A DNA stretch of 64,000 nt from Mycolicibacterium alvei. Lineage in GTDB: Bacteria > Actinomycetota > Actinomycetes > Mycobacteriales > Mycobacteriaceae. A program made the position numbers and the translations under genes. Shown in pieces: positions 54,518-64,000 of the stretch (within the stretch, counting starts at the first letter, position 1; every line of letters starts with the position of its first letter). The notes beneath the pieces are model-generated. The model worked only from the letters and a program-made list of their open reading frames with translations. It was not told where the DNA came from and ran no database searches. The stretch is from positions 496,001 to 560,000 of the forward strand of contig NZ_AP022565.1 in the NCBI RefSeq assembly GCF_010727325.1, read 5' to 3'.

Positions 54518-54591
54518 CGGGCTGTGGCGCAGCTTGGTAGCGCACTTGACTGGGGGTCAAGTGGTCGCAGGTTCAAATCCTGTCAGCCCGA
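54518..54591 (+). tRNA. tRNA-Pro (anticodon GGG), integration target
   Basis: All four stems pair: acceptor CGGGCTG/CAGCCCG, D stem GCGC/GCGC, anticodon stem CTTGA/TCAAG around CTGGGGG, and T stem GCAGG/CCTGT around TTCAAAT. The anticodon is GGG, and the discriminator base is A54591. CCA is not encoded. A tyrosine-recombinase gene ends 97 bases downstream pointing at this gene, so its 3' half is the likely attachment core. Confidence 0.96.
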
Positions 54592-54607
54592 CAGAGAGTT
54601 AGCAGTT

Positions 54608-54643
54608 CAGAGGCGGTTCCGGAGAGATCCGGGACCGCCTCTG
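54608..54643 (+). terminator. Strong hairpin downstream of tRNA-Pro
   Basis: CAGAGGCGGT (54608-54617), then T-CCGG, a loop AGAGAT, CCGG-G, and ACCGCCTCTG (54634-54643) make a 15-bp stem with one G.U pair. It ends the tRNA transcript and, lying between the tRNA and the convergent integrase, also separates host and element transcription. Confidence 0.8.
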
Positions 54644-63000: not shown

Positions 63001-63216
63001 GGCCCGAGCCTTGGCCAGCGCCTCACCCGTCAGCTCCGGCTTAACCCGCTTGGCCAACTGGCCAGGCTGCGTATCAGCCAGCCACGCAAACACATCCTCG
63101 GTGAATAAGGCGAGCTCACGGTCATAGCCCGCATCGGTCGGCGAGTACAGCCAACCTTGCTCGGCCAGGTACTCGCAGATCTCGGTCTCGAATGATGATT
63201 CATGATGCTGGGTCAT
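60091..63216 (-). CDS. hsdR: Type I restriction enzyme R subunit HsdR
   Basis: The 1041-aa motor and nuclease subunit of a type I restriction-modification system. The N-terminal PD-ExK nuclease has Asp149 and Glu163-x-Lys165 (AELKTD). The SF2 translocase has Walker A HSAGSGKT with Lys323, the DEAH box at 431-434, motif III FTATPKAKT and motif VI LSRLNRTAPGK. A C-terminal helical domain (about 800-1041) binds HsdM. All catalytic residues are intact, so it looks functional, provided hsdM and hsdS lie nearby. Its ATG overlaps the GIY-YIG stop by one base. Confidence 0.95.
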   Translation of the reverse strand: MTQHHESSFETEICEYLAEQGWLYSPTDAGYDRELALFTEDVFAWLADTQPGQLAKRVKPELTGEALAKARAGVLATLVKQLGADPYRANGGTLSVLRRGFKDLNAQFAMCQFRPNTTLNETTQQRYDAVRLRVMRQVHYSTQNSNSIDLVFFVNGIPVATAELKTDLSIQSVTDAVLQYKHHRLPKGEPLLQFASRALVHFAVSNSEVQMTTQLAGVDTAFLPFNRGDHGHAGNPANPHGSPTAYLWQQILDRDTWLDILGRFLHLQIDEKIDPATNKKLRTQRMLFPRYHQWDVVTRLVADARRTGPGQKYLIQHSAGSGKTNSISWLAHRLSVLHDDANKPVFDSVIVITDRNVLDAQLQEAIRQIDRTPGVVAHIAGLGGAKSQELANALTGGTKVIIVTIQTFPYALQMIQEQADLKDKSFAIIADEAHSSQAGESSKRLKAALSESERDDLEDGGTLDAEDVLAAEMTARAETKNLSFFAFTATPKAKTLELFGHRSSIHSKPHPFHLYSMQQAIDEGFILDVLRNYTPYKTAFRLTHNGQIFETEDTAASGTVQVSGESTGELVDKSAALKSVMNWVKLHPTNISQKVAIIIEHFRDNVAWRLDGKAKAMVVTSSRRAAVRYKLAFDKYIAEHKYTDIAALVAFSGEVTDPDSGLEKVTETSMNPGLKGRDLRDAFATDEYRVMLVANKFQTGFDQPLLVAMYVDKRLSGVAAVQTLSRLNRTAPGKDQTFVLDFANASEDIVEAFEPYYDATTLADVTDPNIVHQTVNKLDAAGIYQESEVNGLVVDYLKYAKQPGKGHEALNKWIKPARDVFRDRERHARDHGDSLALEELDIFRKDIGTFLRQYDFLSQIVNYEDPAIEKLSIYIRHLAPMIASEQLHHDIDLSGVDFDYLAQHAQQATDGKLSGGVVLQPAKAGGTGTARDPELVALEQVIAQINDLFSGEHPDSSVRNVVTHIKDRLEESETLQQQAQNNTLAQFSASPDLQNEFVGAVIGAMASSEDLSTQILNNPELSQKLLGELVPIIYQGLKPTA

Positions 63217-64000
63217 TATGGCTGCGCCTCATCGGTTCTCGGTCCCACCGTGAGCTGCTCCAGTTCGCTGATGGATTGGCCTTCGGCGTTGCGCCAACTC
63301 TTCCGCCCGTTGTTTTCCCCGCCGACGAGCGCGCATCCCGCCGCCGATGGGGAACCGAAGAGATGATCCTTCAGAAATATCAATTCCTGCTCGCCGACTT
63401 CGATCACTCCTTCCTCCTCCAGAGCTTTCCGCTGGACAGCGATGCCAGGACGTGCAGAGGCGCGTACTCCGGCGCGGCCCTTGGACCCGGCCAACACCAA
63501 CAGTCCCTCCGAGGTCTGGTAACCGGTGGCATCACAGCCGGCCTCGCGGAAGAACAGAGATTCTGGTTCGCTGGTACTCGCTTGCGTAGGGTGCAATGCA
63601 ATGGGCTTCACTGATTCGAGCACCGGAGCGCCGAGCGTGGCCAACAGCACCGCGATAGTGTCTATGAACTCCTGGCAGTCGGCCTCCAACGGCTCAGGGG
63701 TGAACGGGTTCGACGCCTGATTGCCATTCAGCAACGTGTACCGCCCAGCAGCCTTGGCCCGCGCTAGCGACAACCATTCGAGGTAGGCCACGTGGGTCGA
63801 GGTCCACTCGTTCGTCAGCGACACCGCCACAATCGCCTTGGTCCAGAAATCCTTGGTCGCAGTGTGCTGCTGAAGCCGCCCCCCTACATTGCCGGACTGA
63901 CCGATGTAGCACTGCGGCGTCTCGTCCTCATGCGATCCGAACAAGTAGTAGACACCCACCTGCCCGGCCTCAGGACGCTGGAGGAACTGACCGAGAAGTG
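63216..64000 (-). CDS. GIY-YIG nuclease-family protein with DUF4357-like C-terminus, 5'-truncated by the window edge
   Basis: The frame is open to the right edge, so the start is outside. A GTG at 63959 would give 247 aa, but the codons before it read LLGQFLQRPEAGQ, typical of the family's N-terminus. The GIY-YIG core is GVYYLFG, CYIGQSGNVGGRLQQH and a Trp-rich stretch with the catalytic Glu in LEWLSLARAKAAG. The C-terminal 100 residues are DUF4357-like. Such genes often sit within type I restriction operons, between hsdS and hsdR. Its stop overlaps the hsdR ATG, so the two are coupled. Confidence 0.85.
   Translation of the reverse strand, partial: LLGQFLQRPEAGQVGVYYLFGSHEDETPQCYIGQSGNVGGRLQQHTATKDFWTKAIVAVSLTNEWTSTHVAYLEWLSLARAKAAGRYTLLNGNQASNPFTPEPLEADCQEFIDTIAVLLATLGAPVLESVKPIALHPTQASTSEPESLFFREAGCDATGYQTSEGLLVLAGSKGRAGVRASARPGIAVQRKALEEEGVIEVGEQELIFLKDHLFGSPSAAGCALVGGENNGRKSWRNAEGQSISELEQLTVGPRTDEAQP

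Follow-up and report, generated by a model that had tools for sequence, protein, structure and literature searches.

The window, that is the whole stretch of 64,000 nucleotides of Mycolicibacterium alvei that was analysed (G000:C1:496001-560000; 6.0-Mb genome, two contigs), holds the first part of an integrated element, which starts in the 3' half of a tRNA-Pro(GGG) gene and continues beyond the window. Its features are the following (window coordinates, strand):

54518..54592, +: tRNA-Pro(GGG) (ARAGORN), its 3' half placed at the left element end (attL)
54549..54595: attL core, 47 bp, 100% match to the attR copy
54662..54684, +: direct repeat GGATAGCAACG N GGATAGCAACG, putative integrase arm sites
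54688..55893, -: tyrosine integrase (Int), 401 aa, PF00589 E 8e-25, reading toward tRNA-Pro
55906..56493, -: U195, 195 aa, N-terminal part predicted to be beta-structured, HTH at the C-terminus; lies between int and the excise gene
56494..56610: divergent intergenic region, 117 bp, between U195 and the excise gene, 50% AT
56611..56814, +: excise-like HTH_17 protein of 67 aa; 54 aa align with Giles gp30 'excise' at 59% identity
56942..59296, +: Prim-Pol, 784 aa, with a DUF3987-like C-terminal part, PF09250 E 1.3e-19
59298..59386: repeated palindrome (TGTCGGGG A CCCCGACA, then more copies) immediately behind the Prim-Pol stop, putative replication origin
59478..60005, +: phrog_5253 protein of at most 175 aa, with relatives among the proteins of Mycobacterium/Gordonia phages
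60091..63216, -: hsdR (cargo), coding for a type I restriction subunit
63216..64109, -: GIY-YIG/DUF4357 gene (PADLOC PDC-S14), running past the window end (64000)
84152..84198 (C1:580152-580198), beyond the window: attR core, 47 bp

An earlier note, made from the letters alone, had recognised the tRNA-Pro(GGG), an integrase reading toward it, an excisionase-like HTH gene across an AT-rich divergent region, a primase-polymerase gene, hsdR and a GIY-YIG gene. All of these were recovered, the last with DUF4357 above the Pfam cut-off and its GIY-YIG match below. Its gene list lacked U195 and the phrog_5253 protein. Int is 54% identical to mycobacteriophage Giles gp29, its best phage match (tblastn), and carries R, HxxR, GH and Y motifs, presumably in their usual roles. 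U195 is separated from int by 12 bp in M. alvei and overlaps it by ATGA in three relatives (G120, G077, G178). The AT content of the divergent region compares with about 34% in the first 50 kb of the window. Against AlpA-type PF12728 the HTH protein scores E 1.2e-5 and 25.9 bits, and against DUF3987 (PF13148) the Prim-Pol scores E 8.3e-5 and 22.4 bits, each under the curated cut-off of 27. Aligned over 92% of its length, the Prim-Pol moreover shares about 40% identity with mycobacteriophage primase/polymerases such as that of Firecracker. Three exact copies of TGTCGGGG within 100 bp were seen in none of 300 shuffles; similar repeats lie right behind the Prim-Pol stop in G120 and a different palindrome in G080. 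These repeats may thus be a replication origin. For the phrog_5253 protein 126 phage records gave matches, most of which span about 55-60% of it, and its true start is probably further in than 59478.

Ends, second copy and empty site

The earlier note had called for a right attachment site repeating the 3' end of the tRNA gene, and such a repeat was found at C1:580152-580198 with a 203-base query taken from tRNA-Pro. The same query located a third core copy, 46 bp identical, at C1:582048-582093, and the sequence after it resembles the tRNA-Pro downstream sequence of several other species. The first two cores are spaced by 29,603 bp and the last two by 1,897 bp. We read the three cores as probably one main element of 29.6 kb, with its right end at window coordinate 84198, plus a 1.9-kb remnant of an older insertion. 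The 1.9 kb between attR and the third core (C1:580199-582093) hold an open frame, 581106-581642, which by eye resembles a PD-(D/E)XK nuclease in its motif; Pfam gave no match for the longer frame.

The identical 23 bp of the GGATAGCAACG repeat recur near attR (C1:580025-580047). This 11-mer thus has four copies in the element, two near each end, and at most one copy in any of 300 dinucleotide shuffles. The related elements of G020 and G234 have the repeat at both ends as well, that of G080 at attL, and it likely represents the arm-type binding sites of the integrase. The GC content of the element is 61.7%, against 66-67% in the surroundings. With an integrase beside a tRNA gene and direct repeats at both ends, the stretch is recognisable as an integrative element. 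In the closest relative by left flank (G123, L102), a different integrase lies at the same tRNA-Pro site and reads away from the tRNA. The tRNA-Pro site may be an integration hotspot.

Mycolicibacterium peregrinum 852002-51209_SCH5440388 (G020) carries the same element in the same tRNA gene. Blocks of 19.7, 5.5 and 1.7 kb align with M. alvei at 99.58%, 99.82% and 99.94% identity, respectively, while the chromosomal flanks reach 79-88% where alignable. The 14.6 kb between the tRNA end and C1:565160 contain 11 differences. In both copies all five core genes have open frames, which differ at 0-3 positions per gene. On the right side bins of 25/25 identity give way to chance level at the core end, and on the left it drops about 50 bp upstream of the tRNA. 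The comparison with empty tRNA-Pro sites proposed in the earlier note yielded one in another species, G296, where the tRNA side (90% over 301 bp) and the right flank (81.5% over 563 columns) lie about 0.5 kb apart, with no second core between them; we read this as an empty site. The two ends, the second copy and the empty site show the element in its integrated state. Since near-identical elements occupy diverged species, recent movement is indicated, and since the tract of identity ends at the att core and about 50 bp left of the tRNA, site-specific recombination is favoured over homologous exchange. Most likely, then, the element has recently moved between species by site-specific recombination.

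Cargo and the search for virion and conjugation genes

The cargo amounts to 24 kb and consists largely of predicted defence genes. Beyond the GIY-YIG/DUF4357 gene, outside the window, come hsdS, hsdM and the remaining cargo:

DUF6932 gene (PDC-M63A) with a partner of unassigned family (PADLOC/Pfam)
serine recombinase, caspase, DnaK fusion and three genes without an assigned family
kinase, whose best PADLOC matches are PD-T4-6, a label common to many kinase models
ApeA-type HEPN gene, for which PADLOC itself gives weak PDC-S58 matches only

An IS4-type insertion (C1:577074-578526), bounded by inverted ends of 16 bp as judged by eye and flanked by a 12-bp target duplication, lies at the end of the ApeA gene and is missing from the M. 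peregrinum copy. A further insertion, which we take to be of IS3 type from its HTH_21 match, occupies in M. alvei the place of a 464-aa gene of unassigned family; in M. peregrinum this gene, the caspase and the DnaK fusion overlap by ATGA at both junctions. The replacement of a cargo gene by an insertion sequence in M. alvei is a sign of cargo decay. The DnaK fusion itself (C1:565974-569066, window coordinates 69974-73066) lies outside the window beside the caspase. Its DnaK part, located behind a rare TPR-like domain, is 96.7% identical to the host DnaK at the amino acid level and has Asp changed to Thr in the GIDLGTTNS motif. The dnaK part shows signs of what may be gene conversion with the resident dnaK.

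Frames of at least 60 aa were scanned, 23 in the element by Pfam and 16 of them by PHROGs. Neither a structural (virion) gene nor a conjugation gene was found among these frames, as the earlier note had expected for the remaining part of the element. A prophage set of head, tail, terminase and lysis genes was likewise not found in the scanned frames, and Pfam matched none of these frames to an FtsK/TraB or relaxase family. That no complete virion set is present fits a satellite. PHROG matches to 'terminase small subunit' were rejected, as they concern the HTH part of the serine recombinase and are weak (E 2e-5 to 9e-3) against DNA invertase (7e-69). The two PF05065 capsid matches of the M. alvei genome, C1:1161856 and C1:4614596, are both outside the element. 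Two non-coding stretches, searched for a packaging-like sequence common with phages, had no match in 50,697 phage records. Elsewhere in the same genome, the gene sizes of a capsid-bearing region (L117, G000:C1:4604001-4624000), in which the capsid alone was tested, resemble those of the element in G077, and the region is possibly a capsid-forming satellite; a second Prim-Pol (L068, G000:C1:3158001-3178000) has an integrase-like gene near tRNA-Gly(CCC).

Related elements in the genus

Relatives of the Prim-Pol at E 1e-20 are present in 82 of 297 genomes of the genus. A tRNA or tmRNA gene lies in 17 of the 23 Prim-Pol neighbourhoods fetched, and in 8 of the 23 genomes a Prim-Pol match has a capsid gene no more than 8 kb away, seven times beside the Prim-Pol fetched and in G041 beside a second one. 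U195 was matched in 25 genomes, 17 of which were fetched. The tRNA-Pro core stands beside the module in 14 of these; the module is at tRNA-Gly in G120 and at tRNA-Leu in G202, and no tRNA gene was seen beside it in G187. The int-U195-excise triad thus recurs at tRNA-Pro.

Nine elements with two cores in the usual arrangement were found among the 14 tRNA-Pro modules:

large: G000 29.6 kb, G020 28.2 kb, G234 32.5 kb
small: G191 10.6 kb, G077 10.2 kb, G083 9.7 kb, G051 12.4 kb, G178 11.2 kb, G157 9.0 kb

A capsid gene lies inside four of them, all of 9-11 kb (G191, G077, G178, G157), and none was found inside the other five (G000, G020, G234, G083, G051). These four share with the M. alvei element the triad and the att core, but have a capsid gene where the latter has Prim-Pol and defence cargo. 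G077 also gave matches to TerL and portal and a weak one to scaffold, and its span is too short for a whole tail module. G083 has a broken integrase and one mismatch in the distal core; G143 gave no integrase match. Left out of the nine were G245, with two cores 10.9 kb apart and without the triad, and G264 (L100/L111). In the latter the cores are 31.3 kb apart, the int-U195-HTH module lies at the non-tRNA end in the opposite direction, and the genome had no capsid match.

An integrase tree was built from 14 of the 17 rows, without the broken G083 and without G187 and G202, which are distant or start arbitrarily; it groups the M. alvei copy with G080 and G234 (92/100). Capsid-bearing and capsid-less elements are mixed in it, with strong support at 1 of 10 inner branches. 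G234 is M. ahvazicum AFP003, whose 32.5-kb element has a different primase, a related integrase and the same arm sites; its genome had no PF05065 match. At least two distinct capsid-less elements of large size thus exist, related in their integrases and alike in their arm sites, and with different replication genes and cargo. The G234 cargo (L089/L109) includes three kinase-like genes, an AAA_21 gene and an Mrr-type nuclease-helicase, and near the replication gene a WXG100 gene, which is reminiscent of the ESX-secreted toxin systems that PMC10654092 reports for prophages and PICIs of M. abscessus.

U195 also has relatives in predicted viral contigs. Its C-terminal 61 residues are matched (64%) by a protein of a 47-kb contig with terminase, portal and head genes, and partial matches occur in contigs of 15 and 42 kb. 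Judged by these matches, U195 is not exclusive to small elements.

Nature of the element

Among described systems, the core of the element would, by analogy, work most like PICMI, satellites of Vibrionaceae. As described in PMC10803314, int, the gene beside it and alpA are needed for PICMI excision and a primase for copy number, and the published model includes PF12728; a PICMI primase is expected to have DUF3987 (PF13148) or DUF5906. Common to both are the order int, a gene next to int (touching or overlapping it in PICMI), an HTH gene (AlpA-type in PICMI) and a primase, and, as far as PMC10803314 describes PICMI, the lack of capsid-remodelling genes; PICMI iolg often overlaps int, as U195 does by ATGA in the three relatives named above. 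PICMI however sits at fis, has few genes and belongs to another phylum (PMC10803314), and the 12-bp gap between U195 and int in M. alvei is a further difference. Assignment to PICMI was rejected: a PF00589 integrase is present, but the site is tRNA-Pro and the gene content, at 29.6 kb, is not reduced. Candidate Mycobacterium PICIs, with phiRv1/phiRv2 among PICI-like elements, have been published in PMC10654092. They resemble the element in tRNA integration by tyrosine integrases (three of the four mapped examples given there), in phage-type replication genes and in mycobacterial hosts. They are defined in PMC10654092 by integration genes and a major capsid gene, whereas the M. alvei element has no such gene and carries a defence arsenal, and assignment to cf-PICI or candidate Mycobacterium PICI was rejected for that reason. 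The earlier statement that such a class is little described in this genus therefore holds only in part, since candidates are in print (PMC10654092), though of the capsid-defined kind. Giles, in addition to its related Int and excise proteins, has the same tRNA-Pro core beside int, but there the module belongs to a phage, is surrounded by lysis, head and tail genes and has no annotated gene between int and excise.

The earlier note had proposed a satellite or integrative element. Integration stands on the two ends, the second copy and the empty site; the satellite label is partly supported, and by kinship, namely the capsid-bearing tRNA-Pro relatives and the PICMI-like gene order. We consider it probable that this is a capsid-less, satellite-type integrative element loaded with predicted defence genes. 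For the satellite type speak the Giles-like int and excise genes, with the same tRNA-Pro core in Giles, and the int-U195-excise core common to tRNA-Pro elements, four of which are two-ended with a capsid gene; its size speaks against it, as the large elements measure 28-33 kb and their small relatives 9-12 kb. The same direction is taken by the lack of a phage match for the two non-coding stretches, the PF12728 and PF13148 scores under the cut-off, the U195 matches in predicted viral contigs and the cargo decay. Int and the excise protein, probably with U195 as a third partner, would recombine the 47-bp tRNA-Pro core with the help of the arm sites. The excised circle would replicate from the repeats beside the Prim-Pol gene, and, as no recognisable transfer machinery is encoded, would reach new cells in the particle of a helper phage. 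The 24-kb cargo (restriction, caspase, HEPN, kinase and others) would, judging by its gene families, protect host and element from other phages. Since the core is common with the 9-11 kb elements bearing a head module, the two kinds of load, head module and defence cargo, appear to stand in for each other on a shared backbone.

It is unlikely that the element is instead a relative of the AICEs now devoid of its transfer gene, or a cis-mobilisable element which travels by means of the DNA translocase of another element. AICEs such as pSAM2 also have a tRNA site, Int, Xis and a replication protein (of Prim-Pol type in some), FtsK/SpoIIIE-type genes, the majority of them probably chromosomal, were found in all 23 genomes searched, and as Giles is the best of the phage matches of Int, a closer plasmid or AICE relative is possible. 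The element itself however gave no match to a conjugation translocase of the FtsK/TraB type, on which ground assignment to the AICEs was rejected, nor to a relaxase. The excise protein as well as Int is akin to Giles, the core is common to capsid-bearing elements, and the plasmid collection contained no relative of U195 or of the full-length Prim-Pol, with three partial Prim-Pol matches. A decayed prophage or capsid-forming satellite which lost its head module and is now a stationary defence island is quite unlikely. It would account for the phage-like int, excise, Prim-Pol and phrog_5253 genes and for the insertion sequences in the cargo, but it fits poorly with two diverged species having recently received the element at one and the same site, its ends exact and its core genes open, and with the second large (32.5 kb) capsid-less element of M. 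ahvazicum, which has a related integrase, the same arm sites and other replication and cargo genes.

Mycobacteria can exchange chromosomal segments, and the dnaK part of the cargo shows signs of exchange with the resident dnaK; the two copies might thus stem from chromosomal transfer and homologous recombination of an element which is not itself mobile. As the tract of high identity does not extend past the att core on the right, nor on the left further than about 50 bp upstream of the tRNA, with 79-88% identical or unalignable sequence beyond, we regard this as very improbable.

Beyond the satellite-type element which we prefer, a bolder reading, which we hold to be doubtful, makes it one of an unrecognised class of capsid-less actinobacterial phage satellites, marked by int-U195-excise, in which the head module is swapped for defence arsenals. 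Its cargo would then follow a new logic, the mutated near-copy of host DnaK, fused to a TPR-containing adaptor beside a caspase, being bait for chaperone-seizing phages, which gene conversion with the resident dnaK would keep matched to the host DnaK. The odds of this bolder reading are lowered by a full-looking virus in which the U195 C-terminal domain also occurs. If the DnaK fusion were bait, it would be a bacterial immune protein imitating a host chaperone. A definition based on the capsid misses capsid-less elements by design, and the int-U195-excise triad offers a search handle for them. The two species with near-identical copies provide a system in which excision, helper dependence and the spread of a 24-kb predicted defence load may be tested.
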